64,000 nucleotides of DNA from the NCBI GenBank assembly GCA_030065125.1, contig JASJDM010000005.1, positions 1 through 64,000 on the forward strand. Direction: 5' to 3'. Source of the DNA: Lysobacterales bacterium (GTDB taxonomy: Bacteria > Pseudomonadota > Gammaproteobacteria > Xanthomonadales > SZUA-38). Below the pieces are notes generated by a model. That model had not been told where the DNA came from and searched no databases. It saw only the letters and a program-made list of their open reading frames with translations. Below, piece after piece: positions 1,871 to 44,258 of the stretch; the first letter of the stretch is position 1; every line of letters starts with the position of its first letter. A program made the position numbers and the translations under genes.

Positions 1871-4800
1871 TCAGCCGGTTTCTACCGCCTCGTCCAGCAG
1901 CTCCTGCACGTTGGTCAGCAGCTCCGCCTCCTGGTAGGGCTTGCCGAGGTAACGGTTGACGCCGATATCCAGCGCCCGCTCCCGGTGTTTTTCACCCGTC
2001 CTGGAGGTGATCATGATGATGGGAATACCCTTGAGCCGATCGTCACTCTTCATGTGGGTGGCCACTTCGAAACCGTCCATGCGCGGCATCTCGATGTCCA
2101 GCAGCATCAGGTCGGGAATGCGGTCCTGCAGCTGCTCAACGGCGTCCACACCGTCCTTGGCGGTGATTACCTCCATGTCGTGGCGCTGCAGTACCCGGCT
2201 GGTGACTTTGCGCATGGTGATGGAATCGTCCACCACCATGATCAGCGGAACCTGCTCCTCTTCCTGCACCACCTCGACCGCCTCTTCGTCGGCGCCCTTG
2301 GCCTCGGTGGTGAGCTGCAGCGCCGCACCGCGGCGAATCAGCGGACCCAGGTCGAGAATCATGATCACGCTGCCGTCACCCAGGATGGTAGCGCCGAAAA
2401 TGCCCGGGATACTGCTGATCTGGGGACCTACGGACTTCACAACGATTTCGCGGCTGCCCATGACGGCATCTACGCGGATGGCGGCGCGCTGGTCGCCGAT
2501 GCGGGACATCAGCACCGGTACCATGTCGTCTTCGCCATGGTCTTTCCGCTCCAGCCCCAGCAGGACAGCCAGCTCCTTCAGCTGGTATTCCTCGCCGGTG
2601 TACTCGTAGACGGTCTCACCCTCGTCCATGCGCCGGTCGAAATCATGCCGGTTCATCCGCACCACGCCCTGGATACTGGTGAGGGGAATCGCAAAGGTGC
2701 TGTCGCCGACTCGCACCATAATGGCGTGGGTCACCGCCAGGGTGAACGGCAGGCGAATGGTGAAGCGGGTGCCCTGGCCTCGATCGGACGTAATATCCAG
2801 TGAGCCACCCAGCTGCTTGATCTCGCTGTTCACCACGTCCAGGCCCACGCCCCGGCCAGCCACCTTGGTGACCTGCTGGGCGGTGGTGAATCCCGTCTCC
2901 AGGATGAAACCGAACAGGTCGCGATCGGTCAGCTCCGAATCTTCCTTGAGCAGTCCGCGTTCCAGGGCCTTGGCCCGCACCCGCTCGTGGTCGATGCCGC
3001 TGCCGTCGTCTTCCACCGTGATCACCACCTCGGTGGCCTCACGGGTCACGCCCAGCTTGATCTCGCCCTCCGGGTCCTTACCTGACTGCTCGCGCTGCTC
3101 CGGTGACTCCAGGCCATGGGCCACGGCGTTCCGCAACATGTGCTCCAGCGGCGCGGTAATGCGTTCCAGCACGGTCCGGTCCATTTCACCCTGGGCACCT
3201 TCAACCCGCAGGTGCGCTTTCTTTTCCAGTTCTTTGCTGGTCTGGCGAAGAATGCGTCGCAGCCGGGGTACCAGACTGTCGAAGGGCACCATGCGGGTGC
3301 GCATCAGGCCTTCCTGCAGGTCCGAATTCACCCGGGACTGCTGCAGCAGCAGGGTTTCGGACTGGCGGGTCAGATCGTCCAGCATGCCCTGGATACTGAC
3401 CAGGTCGGATACCGATTCGGCCAGGCCCCGGGACAGTTGCTGCAGGGTCGAGAAGCGATCGAGTTCCAGCGGATCGAAGGCTTCATCCATTTCCTCTGCT
3501 TCGCGCTGGTAGCGCGACAGGATCTGGGCCTCGGTTTCGATTTCCAGCTTGCGAAGCTGCTCGCGCAAGCGGTTTACCGTCTGGTCAAATTCCACCAGGT
3601 TGAAGCGGAAGGTTCCAATCTGCTGTTCCAGGCGGGAGCGGTAGATACTGACCTCACCGGCATAGTTCACCAGGTTGTCCAGAAGGTCGGCGCGAACCCG
3701 GATCAATTCCTGCTGTGGCCGGGCCGTCACAGCGCCGCGTTGCTGGACCTCCTCGTCCAGCGCTGTGGGCGCTGGTTTCGGAGCCTTTTTCTTGGGCTTG
3801 GGCTTGGGCTTCGGCTTGGGTTTGGCCTCTTCAGCCGCCGGTTCCTCCGGCTCTGGCTCGGAAGGCTCTGCCTCGGGCTGATCCGGTTCCTGGGGTTTTT
3901 CCTCTTTCTCGGCCTTGCTCGCCTTCTTTTCCGCCTTCTTGTCGGCCTTTTCCGCTTTTTCGTCCGCCGGCGCTTCCTGCTCGGCCTCAGCCTCGGGTGC
4001 CTCCAGCGGTTTGCCGGCAATCAGTGCCTCGATCTGGTTGATGGCCGCGCGCCCGGTTGGGATGGCATCACGGGCCTGGACCTTGTCCAGCATCAGATGC
4101 AACCGGTCAAAGGCCAGTTCCAGGATTTCCACCGTCTGATCGGTCGTAGCGACTCGCTCTTCCACCACGCCTTCGAACAGCGATTCCATGGCGTGACTGA
4201 GGTCACCGATGGGCGACAGTCCGGCCATGCGCGCACCGCCCTTGAGGGTGTGCAGTTCACGCTGCAGTTCCACCACCGGCTCGTGGGATGACTGGTTGTC
4301 CCGCCACTCGGCCATCTTGTGGTCGGCTGCGTCGAGAATCTCGGACCCCTCCTGCAGGAAGATGTCCAGCAGTTCATCATCGATGTCTCCGAACTCGGAC
4401 ATGTCGACGGTTTCATCATCGGCATCGATTCCGGCCAGCTCTTCGCCGCTGCGCTCCCAGGCCTCCAGGTCCGAGGCCAGCTCGGCAATGGCTTCTCCCG
4501 CGGCCTCGCCTGCCTCGTCCACGGGCACCGCTGCCTCGTCGCTTTCGTCAACGGTCTCGCCCGGCTCCGCTTCGGCTTCCGCTTCGGCTTCCGCGTCGAC
4601 TTCCGTCTCCGCCGCCGGCTCGGGCATTTCCTCAGGAACCTCCAGTTCGGCCTCGAGCTCAGGCTCAGGTTCCGGTTCGGCTTCCGCCTGCTCGTCCCCT
4701 GCTGCCTGGTCGTCGGCCATGGCTTCGGCTTCGTCCTCGGTCTCGCCGGCCAATTCGGCTTCATCTTCGCCGACCTCTGCCACTGGCTCCTCGGCGCCTT

Positions 4801-7800
4801 CGTCTGCTTCCGCCGCCGGCTCAACGGCCGGCTCTTCTTCAGCAACCGTTTCGTCCGGGCCTTCACCTGCGTCGGATCCAGCGTCAGAAATGGACTCTTC
4901 GTCGACCAGATCGACCAGCTCCAGTCCTTCCAGGTCTTCGCTGGACACCAGCTCCAGGTCATCCAGTGCGATGTCGTCGGCATCGATGGCAGTAGCGACG
5001 GCGTCATCGTCCAGGCCCAGGTCCGGCAGCGCCTCACCCGCGTCTTCAGCGGTGGTTTCCTCAGCGTCGGCCTCGGACTCGGCAAAGTCCATATCGAAGT
5101 CGAGGTCAAAGGGTTGCGCTTCCTCGTCTCCGGCAACGGGTATGGTGGCGGCAGCAGCCGCTGCGTCATCTACCAGGTCGGACTCGTCGAATTCCTCCGG
5201 CCGATCAGCCATCTCTGGGCCGCTCAGTTCATCAGCGAACGCGCCGGTGAAGCTTTCCGATTCGGGCAGCGCGTCGCGCAGATTCCCCAGCTGCTGGCTC
5301 AGCGCCTCGGTATCGGGCAACTGAAGCTCCGGTGCTTCCAGCTGATCCAGCACCGTCTCGATGGTGCTCACCGTTTGCCGAATGGCGTCCAGCCCCGAGT
5401 TGTCGGGTGCCTGGTCACTCACGTTCAGGCGTTTGACGTAACCTTCCAGGGGTCCGGTCAGCGCGGTGATTTCCGGCAGGTCCACCATGGCGATGGCGCC
5501 GTTCAGCGTGTGCACCGAACGCACCATGGGTTCGCCCACCGACACCGGGTGCCCGGCATCGTCGCAGGCGCCCATGTATTCTTTGATCGTGCCCAGGTGG
5601 GTGGTCACCTCGGTGCGCAGGATTTCCCGCAGAACCGGGTCCATGCCCCCAACCGCGGCTTCTTCGGCAGGCGCTTCCGCCTCTTCGGTCTCCGGCTCAT
5701 CCAGGTTATTGATGAATGCTTCCAGGTCGGCGTCGAAGGCGTCAGCTTCGGACGAGTCGCCCTCCACACCCATCAACTCCTGTTCCTGGTCGGAATCATC
5801 AATGCCCAGATCACCCAGCAGGTCATCCATTTCGTCGGCAGCGGCGATCTCGTCGGCGCCTGCCCCGGCTGCCTCGTCTTCCAGTGGTTCGAGAGACAGA
5901 TCGTCCAGTTCCAGATCGGGGGACAGCGCAAGCCCGTCGGCTTCCACTGCCGCGTCGGCCGCCTCACCCTCTTCGGCCTCGGCTTCGGGACCTTCCAGCG
6001 ACAGATCGTCCAGGTCGTCCAGCGACAAATCGTCGAGATCGTCCAGGTCGTCGAGTTCGGCCGTTTCCACGGGTTCAGCCGAATCATCTTCGGACAGTTC
6101 AACAGCGGCGCCCTCGTCCGTCTCCGCCGACAGTTCATCCAGCGGTTCCAGTTCCAGTCCGGCTTCCGCGGCCGGCTCCTCGGCGTGTGCGGAACCGATT
6201 TCCTCAGGCGCTTCTTCGGCCTCGGCGTGTTCGCTCTCGGCGCTCATTGCCGGGTCGTCGATGGCGAATTCAGCCAGACCGCTGATTTCAGCACTGCCGG
6301 CCGCCGGCTCCGGCTCGCCTTCCAGGGGTTCCAGCTCCAGGTCGCCCAGATCGAAGTCAAAGTCCGTGCTTTCAACCGCAGCCTCTTCCTCGCCTTCGGG
6401 GGTGTCCTCCCCACCCTCGGTCTCCGCGACCTGGCCCTCCTCGTCCTCCAGAGGCAAAAGAGACAGGTCGTCGCTGACCGTTTCGGCCTCGGCTGACTCG
6501 CCCTCTTCCAGGGCCGGCAGATCCAGGTCGGCGTCCAGCAGTTCGCCGTCAAACTGAAGGCTTTCGAATACGTCGGTGGCTGCTTCATCATCATCAACCG
6601 ACGGCATTTCGGTGGTCGCATCGGGCAGCGCTTCGCCGGAATCTGCCGCCAGTAGATCCTCGGCGGCCTCCTCCGCCAGTTCCAGCGGTTCTTCCTCAAG
6701 GGAAAAATCATCCGCCAGCTCAAGCGGCTCATCGTCAAGCGAAAGATCGTCAGCCAGAGCCAGGTCTGCCTCCGCCTCTTCAGCCGGTGCTTCCTCGACG
6801 GCATCGATTGTTTCGGTTACTTCCTGTGGCTCAGTCTCAACGTCAGCCAGAACGGGCTCCTCCGATTCAACCGCTTCGGGCTCGGCCTCGGCGACTTCCT
6901 CGGCCGGAGCGGCCGTTGGTTCAAACCGAACCGTTTCGCCGTTCGCCAGCTTGTTGGCGACGCTCTTGATACCCTCGATGTCGGCGGTCGGACGACCTTC
7001 ACCTTTGACGTTGGCCAGCAGGCCGGGCAACGCCTCGACGGCATGACCCATAAGATCCACCAGCTCCGGCCCGGCAGCGATAGATTGGTCGAGGACCCGG
7101 TTCAGCATGTTTTCGATTTCCCAGCTGAACTCGCCGATGGTGTATGCGCCCACCAGGCGTCCACTGCCCTTGAGTGTGTGGAATGTCCGGCGAATGGTGG
7201 TGAGGGCCTCCTGGTCATCAGGATTGGACTTCCACTGGGGAAACAGCTCCGACAGATTGACCAGCTCTTCCTCGACCTCTTCGATGAACACCTCCTTGAT
7301 CTCGTCATCGATCTCTTCGGAGATGTCGGCCTCAAGGGATTCTTCGGCTGCCGCTTCTACGGAAGGTTCCGTCTCAGCGGGCTCCGCCTCGAAGGAATCG
7401 AGCGATTGTGTCTCCATCGCGTCGGCGGGCGCTTCAGTCTCGCTGCCGGCTTCCGGAATTGTCTCTGGCGCTACTTCAGCCGCTTCGCCGGATTCAGCCA
7501 GTTCCTGCTCCGCAGCCTCCATCATGGAGCGGATCGAGTCTTCGCCGTAGTAGCCCAGCTTGCGCAGGCTCTGCCGTGCCACTTCCAGTATCTTGTCCCG
7601 GCCAGGACGGTGTTCGCGCACCGCTTCCAGGTAGTATTCGAGACTGGCCACGGCGTCAGCCACCGTATCCAGTTCCTCGGCATCGGGGACATTACGCTTC
7701 TTCAGCAGTTCTACCTGGGTGTAGGCCACTATACCGTTCAGCAGGGAGGCCGCCTCGTCCAGGTCCAGCATCTTCAGCGCACCGACGATTTCTTCCAGCA

Positions 7801-9250
7801 GCGCCGGCGTCTGGCCCACCTTTTCATGGTCCCAGGGTGCCTCGATGAACTCCACGATGTTCTGTTTGATGACCTGCAGGTTGCCACTGGCTTCCTTCAT
7901 CAGCGCATCGAGGATGCGCCGAATTTCCGACTTGGGCAGATCCGGCATCGGATCGGGTTCAGCGGCCTCTTCCGCCGGTCGAGTCGGCGATCCCAGCTGT
8001 TCGATGTGGTCATCCAGCGAGGATTCCACGATGAGCAACGAGCCGGCGATGTCCAGCATGGCATTCTCGTTGACTTCGCCGCTGCCGATCAGCTCCTCCA
8101 GCTTGTCTCTCTGCTCCTGTACCACCTTTCGCGGAATACCCAGGCCCAGCATACCGAGGGTATCGCCCACCCGGTGCAGGGTTTCGGACTGCTCGTCGAA
8201 TCCCTCCGTGGTCATGTCGTTCTGGCGCACCTTCAGGTCCAGTGCGTCCTTCACGCGCATCAGGTCTTCCTTGATGGCGCCGGATACGGTACTGAGCAAT
8301 TCCCGGTTGTGCCCCGCGATGGCGCCCTTGGCATGCTCCAGTTCGTCAGCGTCAGGCATCAACTCGTCAAGGTTGAAGGTGGCCTTGACCGCATCCAGGT
8401 GTTCCGAGCCACTGTCGGCATGGGCGGCGTAATACAGCAGGCCCTTCAGCAGATCCTCCGGCAGGCGCTCGGCAAAGTAACCTTCACCGTGCAGCGCCAT
8501 CTGCTTGATCACGCGGTCCAGCTTGCCGAACAGCACCTTCAGGGCGCTGCCGGGATCCAGTGCGTCATTGCGAATACCGTCGAGCACCCCTTCAGCGACC
8601 CAGAATACCCGGCGCAGGTTCTCTTCGAAGGTGATCTGCCGCAGCTTGTCGCACAGCTTGTGCAGCCGGTTGATCATGGCCACGTCGGCCTCTGCCTTGA
8701 ACCAGTGCAACAGGCTGGATTCGAATACCTTCCTGATCTTGGCCGCCGCAACCCGCAGGGTGCGATCGTCCAGCGGTGCTGCGGGCCCATCCGCGATTTC
8801 CGGCAGCGGTGCTTCCAGGCGCGGTGAGAACAAAGCCGTTTCGGACAGCAGCTTCTGGCCCCGCACCGAGCGCAGGTCATTCAGCAGCGGCAGCAGCACC
8901 ACCGGGATGTCCCGGTGCCCGCCCTGCAGACGCTCCAGGTAATCGGGCAGCTGCACGATGCCCCGCATAAGCATGGCGTAGGCTTCATCAGTGTCGGCCA
9001 CTTCATCCTCCAGCAGGCCGAGCGCCACGTGTTCCATCTCTTCCACGACCAATGCCGCGCCATACAGCTCCACCATGCGCAGGGTGCCCTGTACCTGGTG
9101 CAGATAGGTCGCGCAGAACCGCATCTGACTGGTGTCACTGGTGTCCTCGACGTAGGCCTCCAGGGCCTGACGCGCCTGCTTCAGCGTCTCGTCCAGTTCC
9201 TGCTTCACCCAGCTCAGGGTGGTGAAATCAATGTCGTCATGCAGTTTCAT
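1871..9250 (-). CDS. chpA: ChpA, giant hybrid CheA-type histidine kinase
   Basis: This is a 2459-residue hybrid kinase of the Pil-Chp system, nearly the size of Pseudomonas ChpA. Phosphotransfer-like motifs are visible at His51 (LHQVQG), His691 (FHTLKGS), His1247 (HTLNGA) and His1667 (LHTLKGG). The regions between them (about 590-1200 and 1380-1640) are extremely rich in Glu, Asp and Ala. A Lys-Pro-Glu linker spans about 1745-1830. A CheA core follows: dimerisation helices about 1845-1990, ATPase domain about 2010-2170 (N box LRNAVAHGLE, G1 DDGSGID, G2 GRGVGLD) and a CheW domain about 2180-2310. A C-terminal receiver at about 2330-2455 has VVDDS and LLDIEMPRMDG. It should phosphorylate PilG and PilH. 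Some phosphotransfer domains are too divergent to count by eye. Confidence 0.95.
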   Translation of the reverse strand: MKLHDDIDFTTLSWVKQELDETLKQARQALEAYVEDTSDTSQMRFCATYLHQVQGTLRMVELYGAALVVEEMEHVALGLLEDEVADTDEAYAMLMRGIVQLPDYLERLQGGHRDIPVVLLPLLNDLRSVRGQKLLSETALFSPRLEAPLPEIADGPAAPLDDRTLRVAAAKIRKVFESSLLHWFKAEADVAMINRLHKLCDKLRQITFEENLRRVFWVAEGVLDGIRNDALDPGSALKVLFGKLDRVIKQMALHGEGYFAERLPEDLLKGLLYYAAHADSGSEHLDAVKATFNLDELMPDADELEHAKGAIAGHNRELLSTVSGAIKEDLMRVKDALDLKVRQNDMTTEGFDEQSETLHRVGDTLGMLGLGIPRKVVQEQRDKLEELIGSGEVNENAMLDIAGSLLIVESSLDDHIEQLGSPTRPAEEAAEPDPMPDLPKSEIRRILDALMKEASGNLQVIKQNIVEFIEAPWDHEKVGQTPALLEEIVGALKMLDLDEAASLLNGIVAYTQVELLKKRNVPDAEELDTVADAVASLEYYLEAVREHRPGRDKILEVARQSLRKLGYYGEDSIRSMMEAAEQELAESGEAAEVAPETIPEAGSETEAPADAMETQSLDSFEAEPAETEPSVEAAAEESLEADISEEIDDEIKEVFIEEVEEELVNLSELFPQWKSNPDDQEALTTIRRTFHTLKGSGRLVGAYTIGEFSWEIENMLNRVLDQSIAAGPELVDLMGHAVEALPGLLANVKGEGRPTADIEGIKSVANKLANGETVRFEPTAAPAEEVAEAEPEAVESEEPVLADVETEPQEVTETIDAVEEAPAEEAEADLALADDLSLDDEPLELADDFSLEEEPLELAEEAAEDLLAADSGEALPDATTEMPSVDDDEAATDVFESLQFDGELLDADLDLPALEEGESAEAETVSDDLSLLPLEDEEGQVAETEGGEDTPEGEEEAAVESTDFDFDLGDLELEPLEGEPEPAAGSAEISGLAEFAIDDPAMSAESEHAEAEEAPEEIGSAHAEEPAAEAGLELEPLDELSAETDEGAAVELSEDDSAEPVETAELDDLDDLDDLSLDDLDDLSLEGPEAEAEEGEAADAAVEADGLALSPDLELDDLSLEPLEDEAAGAGADEIAAADEMDDLLGDLGIDDSDQEQELMGVEGDSSEADAFDADLEAFINNLDEPETEEAEAPAEEAAVGGMDPVLREILRTEVTTHLGTIKEYMGACDDAGHPVSVGEPMVRSVHTLNGAIAMVDLPEITALTGPLEGYVKRLNVSDQAPDNSGLDAIRQTVSTIETVLDQLEAPELQLPDTEALSQQLGNLRDALPESESFTGAFADELSGPEMADRPEEFDESDLVDDAAAAAATIPVAGDEEAQPFDLDFDMDFAESEADAEETTAEDAGEALPDLGLDDDAVATAIDADDIALDDLELVSSEDLEGLELVDLVDEESISDAGSDAGEGPDETVAEEEPAVEPAAEADEGAEEPVAEVGEDEAELAGETEDEAEAMADDQAAGDEQAEAEPEPEPELEAELEVPEEMPEPAAETEVDAEAEAEAEAEPGETVDESDEAAVPVDEAGEAAGEAIAELASDLEAWERSGEELAGIDADDETVDMSEFGDIDDELLDIFLQEGSEILDAADHKMAEWRDNQSSHEPVVELQRELHTLKGGARMAGLSPIGDLSHAMESLFEGVVEERVATTDQTVEILELAFDRLHLMLDKVQARDAIPTGRAAINQIEALIAGKPLEAPEAEAEQEAPADEKAEKADKKAEKKASKAEKEEKPQEPDQPEAEPSEPEPEEPAAEEAKPKPKPKPKPKKKAPKPAPTALDEEVQQRGAVTARPQQELIRVRADLLDNLVNYAGEVSIYRSRLEQQIGTFRFNLVEFDQTVNRLREQLRKLEIETEAQILSRYQREAEEMDEAFDPLELDRFSTLQQLSRGLAESVSDLVSIQGMLDDLTRQSETLLLQQSRVNSDLQEGLMRTRMVPFDSLVPRLRRILRQTSKELEKKAHLRVEGAQGEMDRTVLERITAPLEHMLRNAVAHGLESPEQREQSGKDPEGEIKLGVTREATEVVITVEDDGSGIDHERVRAKALERGLLKEDSELTDRDLFGFILETGFTTAQQVTKVAGRGVGLDVVNSEIKQLGGSLDITSDRGQGTRFTIRLPFTLAVTHAIMVRVGDSTFAIPLTSIQGVVRMNRHDFDRRMDEGETVYEYTGEEYQLKELAVLLGLERKDHGEDDMVPVLMSRIGDQRAAIRVDAVMGSREIVVKSVGPQISSIPGIFGATILGDGSVIMILDLGPLIRRGAALQLTTEAKGADEEAVEVVQEEEQVPLIMVVDDSITMRKVTSRVLQRHDMEVITAKDGVDAVEQLQDRIPDLMLLDIEMPRMDGFEVATHMKSDDRLKGIPIIMITSRTGEKHRERALDIGVNRYLGKPYQEAELLTNVQELLDEAVETG

Positions 9251-17735: not shown

Positions 17736-18699
17736 ACTCCAGCTTCGTCCGGACGGCCGGCTGCGCCATTTCCTGTCCATCGAAGGCCTGAACCAGCCCC
17801 TGCTGAGCGAGGTGCTGGATACAGCGGAGTCTTTTCGCAAAGCGGCATTCCAGCAGGTCAGGAAGCTGCCTCTGCTGCGCGGCAAAACCGTCATTAACCT
17901 GTTTTTCGAGCCCAGCACCCGGACCCGAACAACATTTGAGCTGGCTGCCCGGCGCCTGTCGGCCGATGTGGTCAATATCGACGTGGCGGCATCATCCACC
18001 ACCAAGGGTGAAACCCTGCTGGATACCCTGCGCACCCTGGAAGCCATGCATTGTGATCTGTTCGTGGTACGCCACGGGCTCAGTGGTGCTGCCCACTTTT
18101 TTGCCCAGCATGCGCCGGAGGGGGTATCGGTGCTGAATGCCGGCGACGGCCGGCACTCCCACCCCACCCAGGCCATGCTCGACCTGTTCACCATCCGTCG
18201 GCACCGCCCGGACCTGGACCGGCTCAAGGTGGTGATTGTCGGCGACATCCTTCACTCCCGGGTCGCCCGCTCCCAGATTCACGCGCTGAATCTGTTTGGT
18301 GTACCGGAGATCCGAGTGGTGGCACCGGCAACGCTGCTGCCCGTGGACGTGGAAACCATGGGAGTCCACATCTACAACGACTTTGACGCCGCCATTGATG
18401 GTGCCGATGTTGTGATCATGCTGCGTCTGCAGCGGGAGCGCATGCACGGACCGCTGCTGTCCAGCAAAGATGAATACTTCCGCCGCTTCGGACTGACCGA
18501 AAAGCGCCTGGCCCGCGCCCGGCCGAATTGCCTGGTGATGCACCCGGGCCCCATGAACCGGGGCGTCGAGATCGAATCCAGCATAGCCGACGGCGCGCAG
18601 TCGGTCATCCTGGAGCAGGTGTCCAATGGCCTGGCCATTCGCATGGCGGTCATGGCGATGGCCCTGGGGTCGCGCGACCCCGGCGAGGGGAAGGCGTGA
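17728..18699 (+). CDS. pyrB: Aspartate carbamoyltransferase catalytic subunit
   Basis: This enzyme condenses carbamoyl phosphate and aspartate in pyrimidine synthesis. The protein has 323 residues from ATG 17728, preceded by GGAGGA at 17718-17723. The carbamoyl-phosphate motif [13 protein letters not shown], the [12 protein letters not shown] segment and [11 protein letters not shown] are intact. No pyrI regulatory subunit follows. Instead the next gene is a dead dihydroorotase homologue (pyrC'), the pairing known from Pseudomonas, in which ATCase forms a PyrB6-PyrC'6 dodecamer. The 8-base overlap with pyrR and 4-base overlap with pyrC' suggest translational coupling. Confidence 0.95.
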
Positions 18700-19949
18700 A
18701 CCAGGTCATCCGCAACGGCCGGCTGCTGGACCCCGCCCGCGGCGTGGACCAGGTCGGTGACCTCTGGATCAGCGCCGGCGCCATTACCGCGATGGGAGAG
18801 CCGCCGGGTTCGTTCGAGCCGGACAGCGAATTCGACGCCAGCAGCCTGTGGGTGATGCCCGGGCTGGTGGACCTGTGCGCCAGGCTGGGTGCCAGTCCCG
18901 ACCAGGAAACCCGGGCCGCCGCCCGCGGCGGCTTTACAACGGTCTGCTGTCCACCCGACACCGGACCGGTGCTGGACTCCGTGGCCGTCCTCAAGCATCT
19001 GCTGGCACAGACCGCGGATTCCAGCTCTGCCCGGATCCTGACCATTGGCGCGTTGACCTCGGGGCTGCAGGGCACCGGGCTGGCGGATCATGACACCCTG
19101 CTGCGCAATGGCTGTGTGGGTCTGGGTAACGGCTCAAACGGCATCGGCGACAGTCACGTGATGCGCAGCGCCATGCAAACCGCCCGGTCTCTGGGTGCCA
19201 CGGTGTTCATTCGGCCCGAGGATCCATCATTGGCTGGCGGCTGTGCCCACGACGGCCCCATTGCCACCCGGCTCGGATTGCAGGGTATTCCCGCCTCCGC
19301 AGAAGCCGCCGGAATGGCCCGGGATCTGGCATTGATCGAAGAGACCGGGGTACGTGCCCATTTCTGCCGCCTGTCCAGTGCCGTGGGCGTGCAGTTGCTG
19401 GAGCAGGCGAGGTCCCGGGGCCTGCCGGTCACTGCGGACGTGGCCATGCACCAGCTTTTCCTGACCGAACACGACATCAGCGGCTTTGACGCCAACTGCC
19501 ATACTCGCCCGCCCCTGCGCGCCACGTCGGACCGGGAGGCGCTGATCGACGCGGTTCGCCACGGCGTGATAGACGCCATCTGCAGCGACCACACACCGCT
19601 GGGCGTGGACGCCAAGCTGGCGCCGTTTGCCGACACCGAACCCGGCATCTCCGCGGCGGAGACGGTCCTGGGGCTGGGCATGCGCCTGGTGGAAGACGAC
19701 CGGCTGGACCTGAGCACACTGCTCGCCGCGCTGGTGGACAATCCAACGCGGGTGCTGGGCCGAACGCCGGCTGGATTGAGTGCCGGTGCGCCCGCCGACC
19801 TTGTAATCTATGACCCCGCCGCGGTCTGGCGCTGTGACCCGGACGAATTCATCTCCGATGGCCACAATTCCCCGTTTTCCGGCTGGGAGTTCCAGGGCCA
19901 GGTGGTCGCCACCTTTTGCGATGGCCGGCAGACTCCAGCCACAGACTGA
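18696..19949 (+). CDS. pyrC': PyrC', non-catalytic dihydroorotase homologue
   Basis: This is a 417-residue dihydroorotase-fold protein from GTG 18696, overlapping pyrB by GTGA. In active dihydroorotases the first strand ends in D-x-H-x-H, which binds zinc. Here the matching segment (residues 59-64, DLCARL) has Cys61 and Arg63 in place of both His. The rest of the fold, including HTRPPLRAT and ICSDHTPLG, is retained. Known: in Pseudomonas such PyrC' proteins are inactive but needed to assemble active ATCase. A true pyrC must therefore exist elsewhere in the genome. The identification is strong. The structural role here is inferred from the family. Confidence 0.9.
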
Positions 19950-19963
19950 AAAGAGAACTCCTG

Positions 19964-20869
19964 ATGGGCTTAACCCGACGCCAGTTCGTGAAACTCAATG
20001 CCGCGCTGGCGGCCAGCCTGGCCACAGCCAACGCCTGGTCCACCGGCAGCCTGATCAGGAAGACCATCCCGTCCAGCGGCGAGCAGGTCACCGCCATGGG
20101 CATCGGCACCAACCGCTACGGTGTGACCAGCGATGAAGACAAGGCCGTGCTGCAGGACACCCTGGCCCGCTTTGCCGAGCTGGGCGGGTCCATCATCGAC
20201 ACCGCACCGTCCTACGGTCGCGGCCTGTCAGAGGTCGTTCTGGGAGAAATTGCCGGCGCAGCCGGTTTGAGCCGGCAGCTGTTCTGGGCTACCAAGGTTG
20301 ATGCCCGGGTGCCCGGGCCGGAACAGCTGGAAGCCTCGCTGCGCAAGTTGGGCGTTGACCAGGCCGATCTGATCCAGGTGCACAACCTGCGGGAAACCGC
20401 CGCGCAGCTGCCTTTCCTGCGCGAGGCTCGCGAAGAGGGGCTGCTGCGCTATATTGGCGTCACCACCCATCGCCCGACCCAGCACCAGGATATTGAACAG
20501 CTGCTGAAGACGGAAAAGCTGGACTTCATCCAGGTGAATTATTCCCTGGCCGACCGTTCCGCCGCCGACCGGCTGCTGCCGGCCGCCCAGGAGCACGGCG
20601 CCGCCGTTCTGGTCAACATTCCTTTCGCCCGGGGCCGGCTGTTTGAAAAGGTCGGTGACCGGCCGCTGCCGGACTGGGCCGCAGAATTTGACTGCCGGTC
20701 CTGGGGCAACTTTTTCCTGAAGTACATCATCAGCCATCCGGCGGTGACCAGCCCGATACCTGGCACCCGGAAAGTCAGGCACGCCGTGGACAACATGCGG
20801 GCGGCGACCGGCCGGCTGCCCTCTCCGGAGCTGCGTCAGCGCCAGGAAGCATTGATCGACTCACTTTAG
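19964..20869 (+). CDS. Aldo/keto reductase with N-terminal Tat-like signal
   Basis: This is a 301-residue NAD(P)H-dependent oxidoreductase of the aldo/keto reductase superfamily. After an N-terminal TRRQFVKLNAALAASLATA segment, which looks like a twin-arginine-type signal, the protein shows DTAPSYGRGLSE (catalytic Asp and Tyr), FWATKVD (Lys) and LIQVHNL (His), the usual tetrad. The C-terminal SPIPGTRKVRHAVDNM matches cofactor-binding segments of the family. The start at 19964 was chosen because it begins the signal; an earlier ATG at 19916 overlaps pyrC'. It follows pyrC' by 14 bases and may be co-transcribed. The substrate is unknown. Confidence 0.8.
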   Translation: MGLTRRQFVKLNAALAASLATANAWSTGSLIRKTIPSSGEQVTAMGIGTNRYGVTSDEDKAVLQDTLARFAELGGSIIDTAPSYGRGLSEVVLGEIAGAAGLSRQLFWATKVDARVPGPEQLEASLRKLGVDQADLIQVHNLRETAAQLPFLREAREEGLLRYIGVTTHRPTQHQDIEQLLKTEKLDFIQVNYSLADRSAADRLLPAAQEHGAAVLVNIPFARGRLFEKVGDRPLPDWAAEFDCRSWGNFFLKYIISHPAVTSPIPGTRKVRHAVDNMRAATGRLPSPELRQRQEALIDSL

Positions 20870-20907
20870 GACCCAAGTAGGAATTATCCCCCAACGGAGC
20901 GATTCCC

Positions 20908-21339
20908 ATGAATCTGACCAAAGCTCTCACGCTGATGATACTGCTCGTCGGTGGACTGACCACTCTGTCTACCGCCCAGGCCAGCGGCCACGGCGGTCGT
21001 CACGGGCCCGGCCACGGCGTTGACCGTATGATCCAGCAGCTGAACCTTACGGAGCAGCAGGCAGTGGCCGTACGCGAGGTGTTTGAACAGCAGCGCAAGG
21101 TGATGGAGGCGGCCCACGCCGGTGGCAGGAGACCCAGCGAGGAAGAACGCCAGGCCCACCGCACCGCACTGGATGCCCGCCTGGCCGAGGTACTGACCGA
21201 ACCGCAGATGGAGCGCTTCCGGGAGATGCGCTCCAACCGCCCCGGCGGCGCCGGCCGCGGCCACGGCAAAGGTTATGGCCACGGGGCCGGCAAGATGCGC
21301 AAGCCCAAAGACGATACGTCCGGCGAGGACGACTCCTGA
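20908..21339 (+). CDS. Spy/CpxP-like periplasmic protein
   Basis: This small protein of 143 residues has a signal peptide (residues 1-25, ending AQA-S), a His/Gly-rich patch, a central helical region with the sequence LNLTEQQAVAVREVFEQQR, and a Gly/His/Lys-rich tail (GRGHGKGYGHG). The LTxxQ element and helical layout resemble the Spy/CpxP family of periplasmic chaperones and stress sensors; the His-rich ends suggest metal binding. It stands alone, 38 bases after the aldo/keto reductase, with an ACGGAGCG ribosome site. Family placement is moderate because the sequence is short. Confidence 0.6.
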   Translation: MNLTKALTLMILLVGGLTTLSTAQASGHGGRHGPGHGVDRMIQQLNLTEQQAVAVREVFEQQRKVMEAAHAGGRRPSEEERQAHRTALDARLAEVLTEPQMERFREMRSNRPGGAGRGHGKGYGHGAGKMRKPKDDTSGEDDS

Positions 21340-21386
21340 CCTGAGGGCGACGCCGGATCGGCGCCCCGGCGTTCAATCCAGGGCCT

Positions 21387-22040
21387 CTACGCGCCCCCGG
21401 CCCGCTCTCCGGGCCTGGGAATCTCCAGCACCGGTGCGTCCATGGCTTTGTGACGGGCCGGGCGGGCGTTCATTCGCTCCAGGTAGTCCTGCAGATGCGG
21501 ATGGTCAATGGAGAATTTGAACGATACCGCCCAGTTCAGGGTGTGGGTGATAAATATGTCTGCCACGGTGAACCGGTCGGCCACCATGAATTCCCGACCG
21601 CCCATGCCCTGGCTCAGCAGCGCGGCCGCCTTTTCGAATTCATAGTGGGCGGTGGATTCAATTTCCGGTATCCGGTGTTCCTTGGGCAGTGCAAAGCGAT
21701 GCTTGCCGGCGGTCCACAGGGGCTGCTCCAGTTCGGTCAGCGCGAAAAACACCCACTGGTCGTTCAACCCCCGGTCCGGGCTCCCCGCCGCCGGAATCAG
21801 GCCCGCCTCCGGATGCCGGTCCGCCAGGTAGGTGCAGATGGCTCCCGATTCCGTCAGGGTAAGATCATCATGGCGCAGGGCCGGAACCTTACCCGCGGGA
21901 TTGATGCCCAGGAAGTAGTCACTGCGGTTGTCCCCCCTGGAAAAATCGATCTGGTAGTACTCGTAGGGCTGCCCCAATTCCTCCAGCAGCCACATGGGGC
22001 GGTCAGAGCGTGAGCGCTTGAATCCGAACAGTTGATACAT
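21387..22040 (-). CDS. Glutathione S-transferase
   Basis: This is a 217-residue GST-fold protein. The N-terminal thioredoxin-like domain shows GKVPALRHDDLTLTESGAICTYLAD, the glutathione-binding segment with the conserved cis-Pro and the ES motif. The C-terminal helical domain has VADRFTVADIFITHTLNWA, the usual N-capping Asp region. The substrate cannot be told from sequence. The window also encodes GshB and a GFA-domain protein, consistent with an active glutathione economy. It is followed on the same strand, 47 bases upstream, by the metallo-beta-lactamase gene. Confidence 0.85.
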   Translation of the reverse strand: MYQLFGFKRSRSDRPMWLLEELGQPYEYYQIDFSRGDNRSDYFLGINPAGKVPALRHDDLTLTESGAICTYLADRHPEAGLIPAAGSPDRGLNDQWVFFALTELEQPLWTAGKHRFALPKEHRIPEIESTAHYEFEKAAALLSQGMGGREFMVADRFTVADIFITHTLNWAVSFKFSIDHPHLQDYLERMNARPARHKAMDAPVLEIPRPGERAGGA

Positions 22041-22087
22041 GGTTTTCTCGTTGCCTGAGTGATTGGAAAGAGTGAGCCGAAGGCAGG

Positions 22088-22825
22088 TTACTCCTGCTGC
22101 CGGTGGGCATCTACCAGGGCGATGGTCCCCTCCAGAAGTCCAAGTCCGCCCGGCGGGCCGTGACTGGGCACGACAGTCTCGGCTTCGGGAAACCGGGTCA
22201 GAATATTGTTCACCGCACGGTCCCAGTATCCGACGTCGGCATCCGCCGTGTTGCCCAGGGTGCGGGCCCTGGCCGGACGCACCGTGCAGCCGCCGAACAG
22301 CAGCCTGGCCTGGGGTACATACACCACCACGTTGTCGCGGGTGTGCGCCGGCCCCGGGTAGTAGACCATCGTACCAGCGAGGGGCTGCATGCCATCGCGC
22401 AGGACCAGGTCATGATCGGCCGGCAGCAGGGACTCGCCAGGGGCTGCCTCGTTGGACAGCCGGTGCGCCCAGCTGGGAATTCCGCGCTCGCGCAGTGCCC
22501 GAACGCCCCCCATCTTGTCCTGGTGCGCATGGGTCAACACGGCCGCGGTCACTGACTGTCCCAGGCGGCTCTCCGTCCAGTCGAGGATGGCCCGGGTGTC
22601 CTTCTCGGTCCAGGCGGTATCCACCAGCAGCAGCCCCCACGGGGTCGTCACCAGCAGACCATTGGAGGCCACCGGGCCCCACTGCTCGGTGTCCAGGTAG
22701 CTGGTATGCATCCAGACCCCCAGGGCCAGAGGCTCGAATTGCACTGGCATCACGGGCTCCGCGCGGCTGTTAGCGAACGCAGCCGCGAGCAGCAGCAGAC
22801 CCATGAACGATGGACGAACAGTCAT
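22088..22825 (-). CDS. Subclass B1 metallo-beta-lactamase (NDM/VIM-like)
   Basis: This is a probable secreted zinc beta-lactamase of 245 residues. From the start at 22825 it has a signal peptide (about 1-22) and then an alpha-beta-beta-alpha metallo-hydrolase domain. All six B1 metal ligands are present: His99, His101 and Asp103 in THAHQDKMGG, His161 in YPGPAHTRDN, Cys180 in FGGCTVR and His222 in VPSHG. The segments VWMHTSYLD, VASNGLLV, LVDTAWT, HAHQDKMGG and GNTADAD closely resemble those I remember of NDM-1, so this is not a generic glyoxalase-II-type hydrolase. Loop 3 and the hinge loop differ from NDM. An upstream in-frame Met at 22867 is less likely. No integron, IS or resistance gene flanks it, so it looks like a resident chromosomal gene. 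Confidence 0.85.
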   Translation of the reverse strand: MTVRPSFMGLLLLAAAFANSRAEPVMPVQFEPLALGVWMHTSYLDTEQWGPVASNGLLVTTPWGLLLVDTAWTEKDTRAILDWTESRLGQSVTAAVLTHAHQDKMGGVRALRERGIPSWAHRLSNEAAPGESLLPADHDLVLRDGMQPLAGTMVYYPGPAHTRDNVVVYVPQARLLFGGCTVRPARARTLGNTADADVGYWDRAVNNILTRFPEAETVVPSHGPPGGLGLLEGTIALVDAHRQQE

Positions 22826-22902
22826 GGCCTCATTGTGACCGCCGACCGCGTTGCCATCAACGGCCACCGCACAGGCTGACGGCTGTACTATGATGTTGTC
22901 TC

Positions 22903-23922
22903 ATGCCCACCAACGTCACGCCGGAGTACAAGAAAGCCGAGGAGGCCTATCGCCAGGCCCGGGAACCGCGGGAGCGGCTGGAGTGCCTGCGGGAACTGCT
23001 GCGCACCATCCCCAAGCACAAGGGCACCGAGCACCTGCAGGCCGACATCAAGACCCGCATCAAACAGCTCTCCGAGGAGCTGGCCGGACCCCGCAAGGGA
23101 GCGCACCGAAGTGGCCCCTCCCACGTGGTGCGGCCCGAGGGCGCCGGGCAGCTTTGCCTGGTGGGGCCGCCCAACGCCGGCAAGTCCAGCCTGCATGCCG
23201 CGCTGACCGGTTCCAGGACCGACATTGGCCCCTACCCCTTCACCACGCATCTGCCGGTCCCCGGCATGCTGCCGTTCGAAGACATTCACTATCAGCTGGT
23301 GGATCTGCCGCCGGTGTCTGCCGAATTCATGGAGCCCTGGATGGTGAACGCACTGCAGCCTGCTGACGGTGTGCTGCTGGTGATCGACCTGAGCGATCCG
23401 GAGTGCCTGGACCAGATACCGGCCATTCTTGGGCGCCTGGCAGAGAAAAAGGTCTTCCTGCGCTCCGGCTGGCCAGGCCAGCCCAGCGAAATCCCGTCCA
23501 ATGTCGACGAACTGGAGGACCCGTTCCGACTGGAGCTGCCCACCCTGCTGGTAGCCAACAAGTCGGACCTGGACCCGGACCCGGAAGAAGTCCAGGTCCT
23601 GGAAGAGCTCCTGGGCCTGCGGTTTCCAGCCCTCGCCACTTCCGCGGAGACCGGGCATAACCTGGACCAGCTGGGGCCGTTCCTGTTCCGGGCCCTGCAG
23701 ACCGTCCGGGTCTACACCAAGTCACCCGGGAAGCCGCCCGACGCGGACAAGCCTTTCACCGTACGCCGGGGTGAAACCGTGCTGGACGTTGCCCGTCTGG
23801 TGCATCAGGACATCGCCCGGGAATTGCGCTTTGCGCGCATCTGGGGCAGCGAGGTCTTCGACGGCCAGCAGGTCGGGCCCGACCACCAGGTTGCAGATGG
23901 CGATATCGTTGAGCTGCATTGA
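22903..23922 (+). CDS. DRG/Obg-related GTPase with C-terminal TGS domain
   Basis: This is a 339-residue GTPase. Residues 1-70 are charged and helical. The G domain has the P-loop VGPPNAGKSS (88-97), a G3 element written DLPP instead of the usual DxxG (134-137), NKSD near 218 and TSAE for G5. The C-terminal 65 residues (FTVRRGETVLDVARLVH ... DHQVADGDIVELH) form a TGS domain. This layout is that of the DRG/Obg-like family, best known in eukaryotes and archaea as ribosome-associated factors. Its role in bacteria is unclear. The gene starts 77 bases from the divergent metallo-beta-lactamase and 21 bases before a dehydratase gene. Confidence 0.75.
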   Translation: MPTNVTPEYKKAEEAYRQAREPRERLECLRELLRTIPKHKGTEHLQADIKTRIKQLSEELAGPRKGAHRSGPSHVVRPEGAGQLCLVGPPNAGKSSLHAALTGSRTDIGPYPFTTHLPVPGMLPFEDIHYQLVDLPPVSAEFMEPWMVNALQPADGVLLVIDLSDPECLDQIPAILGRLAEKKVFLRSGWPGQPSEIPSNVDELEDPFRLELPTLLVANKSDLDPDPEEVQVLEELLGLRFPALATSAETGHNLDQLGPFLFRALQTVRVYTKSPGKPPDADKPFTVRRGETVLDVARLVHQDIARELRFARIWGSEVFDGQQVGPDHQVADGDIVELH

Positions 23923-39643: not shown

Positions 39644-40516
39644 ATGAGCATCCGTCCGCGGCGATCCGTCCTGTACATGCCGGGCTCCAACACGCGTGCC
39701 CTTGAAAAGGCCAGGACCCTGGCCGCTGACTGCGTGATCATGGACCTGGAAGACTCCGTGGCACCCGATGCCAAGGAACAGGCACGGGACAATGTCCTTC
39801 GTGCCCTGGAACGGGGCGGCTATGGCCGGCGCGAACGGGTGTTTCGCATCAATGGCCACGACACGCCATGGCACGCAGAAGACCTGGAGGCCGCCGCCCG
39901 CAGCGGTGCCGACGCAGTCCTGCTGCCCAAGGTCAGCACCGCCGAACAGGTGGGCCAGGCGGCCGAGAGCCTGGCCAGCCACGGCGCTCCCAGCGACCTG
40001 GGGCTTTGGGTGATGGCGGAAACCGCCGCCGGAATCCTGGACATGGACACCATTGCCGGCAGCCATCCAGCCCTGCAGGTCATCGTCATGGGCAATGCTG
40101 ACCTGGCCAGCGAACTGAGGATCGATCCAGGCCCGAACCGGGAGGGCCTGATTGGCCCCATGAGCCACTGTGTGCTGTCGGCCCGGGCCCATGGACTTGA
40201 TATACTGGACGGCGTTTCAGAAGACTTCAGCGACATGACGGCGTTTCGCGCTTCCTGCGAACAGGGACGGTCGCTGGGCTTCGATGGAAAGACGCTGATT
40301 CACCCCCGGCAGATAGACGCCGCCAATGACGTTTTTGGCGTGTCGGACCAGGCCATCGAGTCCGCCACAGCCGTTTGTGATGCGTGGCAGGCCGCCTTCG
40401 ACAAAGGTCGGGGTGTTGCCGTTCTCAATGGGCGTATGATCGAGCAACTGCACGCCGAATCAGCGCAGCGAACACTGGCCCTGGCAGAGGCCATCCGGGA
40501 GATGGAGAATGGCTGA
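39644..40516 (+). CDS. CitE-like CoA-ester lyase (malyl/citramalyl-CoA lyase family)
   Basis: This is a 290-residue HpcH/HpaI-type TIM-barrel protein. [18 protein letters not shown] and [20 protein letters not shown] open it (metal-binding acidic residues). [32 protein letters not shown] and [12 protein letters not shown] follow, which is CitE-like throughout. Family members cleave malyl-, beta-methylmalyl- or citramalyl-CoA, or hydrolyse malyl-CoA. It overlaps the methylmalonyl-CoA mutase gene by eight bases, a strong sign of linked function. The mitochondrial counterpart CLYBL is a citramalyl-CoA lyase that protects the B12-dependent mutase, and a similar job here is an inference. The start at 39644 follows CCAGAGG. 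Confidence 0.85.
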
Positions 40517-42659
40517 GAACAACACCCCACGCCAGCGATGGGATGAGCTGGCAACCCGGGAGCGCAAGGGGCGCTCACCCGACGATCTGGTCTGGCAAAC
40601 CCCGGAAGGCATTCCGGTGCAGCCGGTATACACCGCTGACGACCTGGCCGGCATGCAGCACCTGGACAGCCTGCCCGGATTCAAGCCATTCATACGCGGC
40701 CCCAGGGCCACCATGTACACGGGAAGACCCTGGACAGTGCGGCAGTACGCCGGATTTTCAACGGCGGAGGAATCCAACGCCTTCTACCGCAATAACCTGG
40801 CGGCGGGACAAACCGGCCTGTCGGTAGCCTTCGACCTGGCCACCCACCGGGGCTACGACTCGGACCACCCCCGGGTGGTGGGCGACGTGGGTAAAGCGGG
40901 AGTGGCCATCGACACCGTCGAGGACATGAAGATCCTGTTCGACGGTATCCCGCTGGACAAGATGTCTGTCTCCATGACCATGAACGGCGCGGTGATCCCG
41001 ATCATGGCCATGTACATCATTGCCGCCGAGGAGCAGGGCGTCAGCCAGCAGCAGCTGGCCGGCACACTGCAGAACGACATTCTCAAAGAATTCATGGTGC
41101 GCAACACCTATATCTACCCGCCCCAGCCCTCCATGCGCATCGTGGCCGACATCATCGGCTTCACTGCCCACCACATGCCGCGCTACAACTCGGTATCCAT
41201 CTCCGGCTACCACATGCAGGAGGCCGGAGCCACGGCGGTACAGGAGCTGGGCTTTACCATCGCCGACGGCATTGAATACGTACGCGCGGCCCTGGCCAGC
41301 GGGTTGAAGGTGGATGAGTTTGCGCCGCGGCTGTCGTTCTTCTTCGGCATCGGCATGAACTTCTTCATGGAGGCGGCCAAGCTGCGTGCGGCCCGCCTGC
41401 TGTGGGCCCAGCTGATGGAAGAGCTGTTTCAGCCGGAGAACCCCAAATCGCTGATGCTGCGGACCCACTGCCAGACCTCAGGAGTCAGTCTGACCAGCCA
41501 GGATCCCTACAACAACATCATCCGCACGACGGTGGAGGCGCTGGCCGCGGCCCTGGGCGGAACCCAGTCCCTGCACACCAATTCCTTCGACGAAGCCCTG
41601 GCGCTGCCGACCCCGTTTTCCGCCCAGATTGCCCGCAATACGCAACTGGTGCTGCAGGAGGAAACGGGCGTCACCCGGGTGGTTGATCCCCTGGCCGGGT
41701 CCTACTACGTGGAAAGCCTGACCGCGTCCCTGGTCGCCGAAGCCCGCAAGCTCTTCGACGAGGTGGAGGAACTGGGGGGCATGACCAAGGCGGTGGAATC
41801 CGGCATGCCCAAGCTGCGCATCGAGCAGGCCGCCGCACTGCGCCAGGCCCGCATCGACCGCGGTGAAGAAGTCATCGTCGGAGTTAACAAGTTTCAGCGG
41901 GACGATGAACCCGATATCGACGTGCTGGACATCGACAACACCGCGGTGCGCGAGTCTCAGATCGAGCGGCTGACCCGAGTCCGCGCCGAGCGCGACGAGA
42001 CCGCCTGCCAGGTGGCCCTGGACGCCCTGACTGCCGCCGCTGAAAACGAAACCGGCAACCTGCTGGATCTGGCCCTTGATGCGGCCCGGACTCGGGCCAG
42101 CGTGGGAGAGATCTCCGGCGCCCTGGAAAAAATTTACGGGAGGCACACCGCCGTGACCCAGTCCATCAGCGGAGTGTATGGATCCGCCTACGAAGACGAC
42201 GCGGATTTCGCCAGTATCCAGGCGGAAATCGACGAGTTTGCCCGCGGCGAAGGCCGTCGTCCCAGGATGCTGGTGGTAAAGCTGGGACAGGATGGCCATG
42301 ACCGGGGCGCCAAGGTGATTGCCACGGCATTTGCCGACCTGGGCTTTGACGTGGATATCGGGCCGCTGTTCCAGACCCCGGAGGAGGCCGCACGGCACGC
42401 GGTGGAAAACGACGTTCACGTGGTGGGCGTGTCCTCCCAGGCAGCCGGCCACAAAACTCTCGTTCCCCAGCTGATCGAGGCACTGAAAGCCAACAACGCT
42501 GAAGATATCCTGGTGGTATGCGGCGGGGTCATCCCGCCAAAAGATCACGCGACGCTGAGAGCGGGAGGTGTAGCCGCCGTGTTCGGCCCGGGCACCAACA
42601 TCCCGGCTGCCGCGCGGGACGTCATCCGGCTGATCCAGCAGCGCCAGAAAGCCGCCTGA
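40509..42659 (+). CDS. mcm: Methylmalonyl-CoA mutase
   Basis: This is a 716-residue adenosylcobalamin enzyme that interconverts methylmalonyl-CoA and succinyl-CoA. The N-terminal barrel has [29 protein letters not shown] and [13 protein letters not shown]. The C-terminal B12 domain has the base-off motif [10 protein letters not shown] with His597 as cobalt ligand. Length matches the single-gene large-subunit type. The accessory GTPase MeaB, both propionyl-CoA carboxylase subunits and the epimerase are encoded downstream, so the whole propionyl-CoA to succinyl-CoA path is here. Its start lies inside the lyase gene, with GGAG-like bases before it. Confidence 0.96.
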
Positions 42660-42692
42660 GCCAAAAACGACAACAGCAAAAGAAACAAGCCT

Positions 42693-44225
42693 ATGAAGGA
42701 CATCATCCAGCAGCTTGCTGACAAGCGGGCCGCGGCCAAACTGGGCGGCGGTCAGCGCCGCATCGACTCCCAGCACGCCAAAGGCAAACTCACCGCCAGG
42801 GAGCGCATCGAGCTTCTGCTGGACCCGGGCAGCTTCGAAGAATGGGACATGTTCAAGGAGCACCGCTGCACCGATTTCGGCATGGCCGAGCAGAAGGTGC
42901 CCGGCGACGGCGTCGTGATCGGCTACGGCACCATCAACGGGCGGCTGGTGTTTGTGTTCAGCCAGGATTTCACTGTGTTCGGCGGCTCTCTGTCCGAGGC
43001 CCACGCGGAGAAGATCTGCAAGATCATGGACCAGGCCATGAAAGTAGGCGCGCCAGTGATCGGTCTGAACGACTCCGGTGGTGCGCGCATCCAGGAGGGC
43101 GTGGCCTCCCTGGGGGGCTACGCCGAGGTCTTCCAGCGCAACGTCATGGCCTCGGGCGTGATCCCGCAGATTTCCCTGATCATGGGGCCCTGCGCCGGCG
43201 GCGCGGTGTACTCCCCGGCCATGACCGACTTCATCTTCATGGTCAAGGACACGTCATACATGTTCGTCACCGGTCCGGACGTGGTCAAAACCGTCACCCA
43301 CGAGGTAGTGACCGCCGAGGACCTGGGCGGCGCGGTGACCCACACCTCGCGATCCGGCGTAGCCGACCTGGCCCTGGAAAACGACCTGGAGGCCCTGCTC
43401 AACACCCGCCGGTTTTTCAGCTTCCTGCCCGCCAACAATCGGGAAAAGCCGCCGCACCGACCCACCGACGATCCGGCCAGCCGGATCATTCCGTCCCTGG
43501 ACAGCCTGGTTCCCGAGGATGCCACCAAGCCCTACGACATCAAGGAGCTGATCGTGAAAGTGGCCGACGAAGGCGACTTTTTCGAACTGCAGCCGGACTA
43601 CGCCCAGAATATCGTGATCGGGTTCATCCGATTGGAAGGTCACAGCGTCGGCGTGGTGGCCAACCAGCCCATGGTGCTGGCGGGTTGCCTGGACATCGAC
43701 TCGTCGCGAAAGGGTGGACGATTTGTCCGCTTCTGCGACGCCTTCAATATCCCTATCCTGACTCTGGTCGACGTGCCCGGATTCATGCCCGGAACCGCCC
43801 AGGAGTACGGCGGCATCATCAAGCAGGGTGCCAAGCTGTTGTATGCCTATGCTGAAGCCACCGTACCCAAGGTCACTCTGATCACCCGCAAGGCCTACGG
43901 TGGCGCGTATGACGTGATGTCCTCCAAGCACCTGCGGGGCGATGTGAACTTCGCGTGGCCCAGCGCTGAGATCGCGGTCATGGGGTCCAAGGGAGCGGTG
44001 GAAATCATTTTCCGCAAGGACATCGGCGACGCCGACAAGATCCAGCAGCGCACCGACCAGTACCAGGAGAAGTTCGCCAACCCGTTCATCGCCAGCAACC
44101 GGGGCTACGTGGACGACGTGGTTACGCCCCGCTCCACCCGGGTTCGAATCTGCCGGTCGTTTGCCATGCTGCGGGACAAGGAACTGGAAAACCCCTGGCG
44201 CAAGCACGGCAACATCCCGCTCTGA
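42693..44225 (+). CDS. pccB: Propionyl-CoA carboxylase beta subunit
   Basis: This is the 510-residue carboxyltransferase subunit, which moves CO2 from biotin to propionyl-CoA. The crotonase-like halves show [14 protein letters not shown] and the [14 protein letters not shown] oxyanion-hole segment, then [28 protein letters not shown] in the second half with [10 protein letters not shown]. It lies 33 bases after the mutase and 33 before pccA. Acetyl-CoA carboxylase activity cannot be excluded by sequence alone, but the context with mutase, MeaB and epimerase favours propionyl-CoA. Confidence 0.95.
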
Positions 44226-44258
44226 TCTCCCAGCAGGCAAAACGAACACAGGCACAAC

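Follow-up and report, generated by a model that had tools for sequence, protein, structure and literature searches.

A chromosomal subclass B1 metallo-beta-lactamase gene of the NDM/FIM clade in a probable gammaproteobacterium

The window analysed here is a 64,000-nucleotide stretch, positions 1 to 64,000 of contig JASJDM010000005.1 (assembly GCA_030065125.1), and it carries a gene for a subclass B1 metallo-beta-lactamase (MBL) on its minus strand. The MBL belongs to the clade that holds NDM-1 and FIM-1, and we predict that it works in the periplasm with two bound zinc ions, where it would likely hydrolyse penicillins, cephalosporins and carbapenems; its gene would be an old gain, likely from alpha- or deltaproteobacteria. 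We give this reading as a whole a probability of roughly 0.82. No publication on the gene was found among the open-licence papers searched. The features of the gene are as follows.

22825..22088, minus strand: subclass B1 MBL gene, open reading frame (ORF) from ATG to stop, 245 codons
22760..22825, minus strand: signal-peptide-like N-terminal stretch, residues 1-22, without a lipobox cysteine (by eye, and lipobox test negative)
22517..22534, minus strand: THAHQD, residues 98-103, with zinc ligands His99, His101 and Asp103 (H in 63/63, H in 62/63 and D in 63/63 aligned rows)
22343..22345, minus strand: zinc ligand His161 (63/63 aligned rows)
22286..22288, minus strand: zinc ligand Cys180, the sole cysteine of the MBL
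22277..22279, minus strand: Arg183, position 224 in BBL numbering by alignment, Lys in NDM-1 (Arg in 62/63 rows including the query)
22250..22252, minus strand: Asn192, BBL 233 by alignment (63/63 aligned rows)
22160..22162, minus strand: zinc ligand His222 (63/63 aligned rows)

An earlier reading of the window, made from the sequence only, had assigned the protein to subclass B1, and this identity is borne out by a score of 230.3 bits against the NCBIfam model bla_subclass_B1 (NF033088; cut-off 200, E 1.9e-68), by the six zinc ligands and by 714 homologues (E <= 1e-10) among the roughly 5.8 billion proteins searched. The interval given there, 22088-22825, matches the ATG-to-stop ORF exactly; the minus strand is open in frame, and a plus-strand reading was ruled out by a stop inside that frame. 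The true start is uncertain, since translation from an in-frame GTG at 22867 would lengthen the protein by 14 residues. The best 25 of 55 matching NCBIfam models were considered, all of them B1 models, and among these the MBL reached no cut-off of a named family, scoring 206.6 bits with blaFIM (cut-off 590), 164.6 with blaNDM (580) and 162.8 with blaVIM (500). In Pfam, it matches Lactamase_B (61.3 bits). The B1 fold is present in the predicted structure (pLDDT 94, with low confidence at residues 1-20), for which FIM-1 is the best structural match, and by sequence the solved relatives rank in the order FIM-1, Erythrobacter litoralis, Hirschia baltica and NDM. A subclass B3 or glyoxalase II-like hydrolase is contradicted by the GGC motif with Cys180 (the Cys221 ligand). 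A second B1 gene in the host genome was also rejected, the next matches to the B1 model reaching at most 88.8 bits, under the cut-off, and the best of them being a 360-aa protein without the GGC motif. Judged by sequence, the MBL is a new B1 family under the 70% clustering rule of PMC5637372 (which, like PMC5770381, PMC12326980 and PMC12238668, is cited here from excerpts of the paper), and its kind is already known from many relatives in public databases.

Alignment confirmed the zinc ligands His99, His101, Asp103, His161, Cys180 and His222 at the residues proposed earlier, and the motifs THAHQDKMGG, VWMHTSYLD and LVDTAWT are all present. Their claimed closeness to NDM-1 is exact for the first, but the other two are one letter off each (VWQHTSYLD and VVDTAWT in NDM-1). 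The signal peptide of the sequence-only reading stands to the extent that the hydrophobic N-terminus resembles one by eye, given the start codon chosen. A pattern test found no lipobox at this N-terminus, and none is present, the only cysteine being the zinc ligand Cys180. From the first to the third His ligand motif there are 62 residues in the MBL, as in IMP-1, compared with 64 in FIM-1, 65 in VIM and 69 in both NDM-1 and the Erythrobacter enzyme 6v72.

B1 enzymes open the lactam ring with a hydroxide that bridges two zincs. In the MBL, Zn1 would be held by His99, His101 and His161 and Zn2 by Asp103, Cys180 and His222, and the two ions would activate the bridging hydroxide for attack on the beta-lactam carbonyl, with Arg183 predicted to bind the drug carboxylate and Asn192 placed in the same loop. 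The protein would be exported to the periplasm and, since it is without a lipobox, is likely soluble there, unlike NDM. Its natural role may be to shield cell-wall synthesis from the beta-lactams of neighbours. The MBL is probably active as a carbapenemase, a prediction supported by the precedent of group B1-1 in PMC5637372 (Table 3), where 3 of 3 tested B1-1 genes, and 18 of 21 genes overall, were Carba NP positive.

A careful tree of 82 rows comprised 46 homologue representatives (from clustering at 62% identity of 119 homologues, which remain of the 120 listed among 714 when the window's own protein is set aside), 8 loci of named genomes, 20 same-order or same-class genes, 7 references and the query. 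Without an outgroup from B1-3 or B1-4 (BcII or CcrA, for instance), the tree is unrooted and was read as splits only. The MBL lies inside a 60-row clade with NDM-1, FIM-1, 6v72 (Erythrobacter) and 6v54 (Hirschia), and the VIM and IMP groups lie outside it. The split between the NDM/FIM clade and VIM and IMP has a support of 99/97, and of 100/96, with the bootstrap not fully settled, in a second tree from which two long-branched rows (L119 and L120) were dropped, as they also were for the approximately unbiased (AU) tests. In a quick tree of all 119 listed homologues, the MBL was again separate from VIM and IMP, but P0009 and P0028, two of the homologues, grouped on the side of VIM and IMP (support 85). 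The phylogeny that had been suggested as a check places the MBL in the NDM/FIM clade. It upholds half of the proposed kinship with an NDM/VIM lineage: the MBL is on the same side of the tree as NDM, but its grouping with VIM is rejected (AU p 0.0013), and the blaVIM cut-off is likewise missed. Group B1-1 of PMC5637372 takes in the NDM, FIM and VIM side; the MBL clades with NDM and FIM, and in our unrooted tree VIM is outside that clade. Within the clade, no sister of the MBL is resolved, and its terminal branch is long (0.79 and 0.91). NDM-1 and the Erythrobacteraceae enzymes group at 100/100 to the exclusion of the MBL, and constraining the MBL with the NDM group (AU p 0.277) or with the FIM group (AU p 0.251) gives groupings that are not seen in the tree and not rejected.

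Three VIM-like B1 genes were met in the same comparison, one from the host's order (L102; genome G322, family f2), one at 5908-6714 of a Bacteroidota metagenome-assembled genome (MAG) contig that may be misbinned (L017), and one in genome G556 (L118). They have 57.5%, 58.8% and 50.6% identity to VIM-1, respectively, and form one group with VIM at 100/100; the first indicates that the host's order also carries VIM-type chromosomal genes.

The best non-self homologue of the MBL scores 254 bits, and the top identity among the matches listed is 57%. Six of the best 120 of 714 rows name an organism: Henriciella and Hyphococcus (twice), both Alphaproteobacteria, an alphaproteobacterium, a deltaproteobacterium and one 'Pseudomonadota bacterium'. 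Among characterized enzymes, the best solved match by sequence and fold is FIM-1 of Pseudomonas aeruginosa (PDB 6v3q; 45.7% identity over 219 columns), which shares the clade, the Arg at BBL 224 and a similar ligand stretch (64 against 62 residues); the MBL scores far below the blaFIM cut-off, however (206.6 of 590 bits), and FIM-1 is not its sister in the tree. The ElBla2 type of Erythrobacter litoralis (PDB 6v72/6v73; PMC5770381) is chromosomal, of the same clade and 47.2% identical over 218 columns, but groups with NDM-1 and has the longer ligand stretch. The Hirschia baltica enzyme (PDB 6v54, 6v5m, 6v61) is 39.5% identical and has as its sister L116, a gene of a same-class genome, rather than the MBL. 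NDM-1 has the same ligands and the identical THAHQDKMGG, but differs in its lipobox, its Lys at BBL 224 and a ligand stretch seven residues longer; identity is 40.9% over 220 columns (BLAST), or 36.8% over 242 columns counting the N-terminus. An insertion before the third His ligand has been described for NDM (PMC12326980), and it is not in the MBL (62 against 69 residues between the ligand motifs). The label 'NDM-like' therefore does not hold in detail, FIM-1, 6v72 and database proteins (up to 57% among the matches listed) all being closer than NDM-1. Close NDM ancestry was ruled out by the identity, the missing lipobox and the shorter ligand-to-ligand stretch, and the MBL is unlikely to be the source of NDM. 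AMM-1 from an Alteromonas mangrovi MAG (PMC12238668) is likewise a chromosomal, gammaproteobacterial B1 gene without mobile elements, but it belongs to B1.2 with IMP-1 and VMB-1, a comparison made by description and not by direct alignment.

The origin of the NDM lipidation sequence is called an open question in PMC12326980. We surveyed N-termini with our own pattern test, in a strict and a relaxed form, by which 126 of 133 rows on the NDM/FIM side (rows P0005-P0123 and L001-L007 among them) could be judged. There, 40 of 126 passed the strict and 66 of 126 the relaxed test, compared with 3/11 and 4/11 in the VIM group and 0/8 in the IMP group; shuffled N-termini passed the relaxed test in 3.1% of cases (197/6300). 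On an 80-row tree, the trait needs at least 22 changes. Two Erythrobacteraceae loci (L006 and L007), outside the script-judged rows, have a lipobox-like site by eye. As about half of the NDM/FIM-side rows are lipobox-like, the membrane anchor of NDM may predate its mobilisation.

The host genome is 6.5 Mb in 138 contigs (94.8% complete). The proposal of a gammaproteobacterial setting is supported: the contig is likely chromosome of that class, as suggested by synteny with family relatives and by the names attached to homologues of the nearby GshB. Eleven of its 120 listed homologues name an organism, 8 gammaproteobacterial (mostly Lysobacterales/Xanthomonadales), 3 'Pseudomonadota bacterium' and none alphaproteobacterial; for Marinihelvus the class assignment was checked. 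The genes around the MBL that matter here are the following.

21387..22040, minus strand: glutathione S-transferase (GST) family gene (Pfam GST_N and GST_C), 47 bases downstream of the MBL on the same strand
22903..23922, plus strand: TGS-domain GTPase (Pfam TGS, MMR_HSR1), divergent, on the other side of the MBL
18528..19949, plus strand: pyrC-like amidohydrolase (Pfam Amidohydro_1), last gene of a synteny block from the pil cluster to pyrC (order by tblastn in G001, G002 and G003)

To the left of the MBL are a chemotaxis cluster of the type IV pilus kind, gshB, a TonB protein and pyr genes, among them what we presume to be pilG, yqgE and pyrR. Over the stretches fetched from family relatives G001, G002 and G003, the pil-to-pyrC order is kept. 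After pyrC, G001 and G003 have a GST and a HAD protein, followed in G003 by pilU and pilT (labels by eye), whereas the window has an aldo/keto reductase, an unknown ORF, the GST, the MBL and the TGS GTPase. The host's own pilT and pilU, 95% identical to those of G003, are on another contig (C22, L125), and the HAD and GST genes are absent from the 16 kb fetched there. The pyrC-GST-HAD-pilU-pilT order of G003 is thus broken in the host genome (window 18528-23922 against C22), and the end of the MBL lies about 2.1 kb past the rearranged junction, beyond where family synteny stops. None of the three family relatives (f7) has the MBL at E <= 1e-3, and the same three have the full-length TGS GTPase. 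This GTPase is full-length in 3 of 60 relatives, all of family f7 (75-77% identity), shorter GTPase-domain matches being common, and organisms named for its homologues include Woeseiaceae and Chromatiales. The claim that the MBL is a resident gene is therefore only partly upheld, as it is chromosomal with host-like codon use but absent from all three relatives and just past a synteny break.

B1 genes above the cut-off occur in 14 of 398 genomes of the order and in 6 of 369 in the class sample, the host being counted in both. Pooling the two samples gives 21 same-class carriers at E <= 1e-30 (two below the family cut-off), and the B1 genes of 18 of them lie outside the NDM/FIM clade. In the excerpts of PMC5637372, the hosts of group B1-1 as of 2017 are Alpha- and Deltaproteobacteria only, a pattern that a gammaproteobacterial host does not fit. 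An old between-class transfer is the likeliest history: the gene would have been gained long ago, likely from an alpha- or deltaproteobacterial donor, beside the rearranged end of the pyrC block.

Several observations weigh against this account of the enzyme and its history. The long end branch leaves the position of the MBL inside the NDM/FIM clade open. Three of 21 predicted B1 genes were inactive, all of them in B1-3 (PMC5637372), and substrate range varies within the NDM/FIM clade: with ElBla2, E. coli BL21 had a higher minimum inhibitory concentration of imipenem, yet the enzyme left nitrocefin and cefepime unhydrolysed (PMC5770381), so that a nitrocefin assay alone could mislead. As regards transfer, two further same-class genomes (G050 and G539) have members of the clade, the codon index and the GC content at third codon positions (GC3) are host-like with no mobile genes seen, and the MBL could have been lost in the few known relatives. 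In G050, which is of the same order, the gene (L110, contig C46) lacks its N-terminal part, and an N-terminal match (L040) is found on contig C19.

The strongest alternative, though an unlikely one, is that the host family has long inherited the MBL vertically and that the sampled relatives have lost it. Its GC3 (0.95 standard deviations, sd, from the mean), its codon index (-0.81 sd) and the lack of mobile genes suit such inheritance, and the ElBla2 authors argue for loss of their gene (PMC5770381), but 0/3 family relatives carry the MBL, it sits in a stretch absent from them, and 18/21 same-class carriers have B1 genes from elsewhere in the tree.

Considerably less probable is that the MBL has a B1-type fold but acts naturally on something else, for instance as a glutathione-linked hydrolase partnered with the adjacent GST. 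The 47-base spacing on one strand invites the idea, a shared transcript of MBL and GST being possible, and some predicted B1 genes are inactive on imipenem (PMC5637372); against it stand the intact B1 site with Cys180 and Asn192, the B1 model score above the cut-off, and the finding that no GST adjoins the MBL in the 12 relative loci compared. Scans for promoters, for Rfam families (at gathering scores) and for tRNAs gave no hits, and one terminator-like site was found at 21331-21317, downstream of the GST, where 0.9 were expected. A more far-reaching history is also rather doubtful, in which the NDM/FIM clade would long have been established outside the clinic in Gammaproteobacteria: a carbapenemase would have crossed from alpha- or deltaproteobacteria long before drug use and become soluble while NDM stayed lipid-anchored, and would now form a chemical-defence pair with the GST.

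A binning or assembly error joining a foreign stretch to the pil-pyrC block of the host is very improbable. The genome is in 138 contigs and family synteny stops 2.1 kb before the MBL, but the gene is interior to a 110.8-kb contig of even composition whose left part matches the family relatives, and identical database entries for the three proteins MBL, GshB and TGS GTPase share a longest-contig value of 129,504 bases, suggesting a second assembly in which the genes are linked in the same way. Most strongly disfavoured is recent acquisition as a mobile resistance gene, in the manner of NDM-1: occurrence is patchy and the GC content (0.672) exceeds that of 36 of 37 other window genes (1.68 sd), but all 2709 matching records among 72,556 in a plasmid collection are below 60% identity, GC3 and codon index are within 1 sd, and, in keeping with the earlier statement that no integron, insertion sequence or resistance gene flanks it, no transposase, integrase or acquired resistance gene was found in 40 flanking ORFs (Pfam or NCBIfam; the scans left out attC sites and the remaining ORFs, among them those right of 59557). 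Capture by a mobile element was ruled out by the plasmid search and these scans.

Three further observations concern the surroundings. In alphaproteobacterial loci L002, L003 and L004 (two of them Marinicaulis), gshB is found on the downstream side of the MBL at a distance of about 4.6-5.5 kb, and in the window the two genes are about 7 kb apart, probably by chance. The gene at 1871-9250 encodes a CheA-type protein of 2459 aa that ends in a response-regulator part, as seen in type IV pilus chemotaxis systems. A compact propionyl-CoA/methylmalonyl-CoA cluster at 40509-47637 comprises a mutase, both carboxylase subunits, MeaB and a glyoxalase-fold gene (likely the epimerase).

With the MBL, the B1 clade of NDM and FIM gains a deep and unassigned branch, in a probable host class from which B1-1 was not reported in 2017 according to the excerpts of PMC5637372. 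Its identical ten-letter motif proved a poor guide to NDM ancestry. With lipobox-like signals in about half of the clade, the origin of NDM lipidation (PMC12326980) becomes directly testable. As one more member of a large reservoir, the MBL illustrates the breadth of B1 enzymes in nature.
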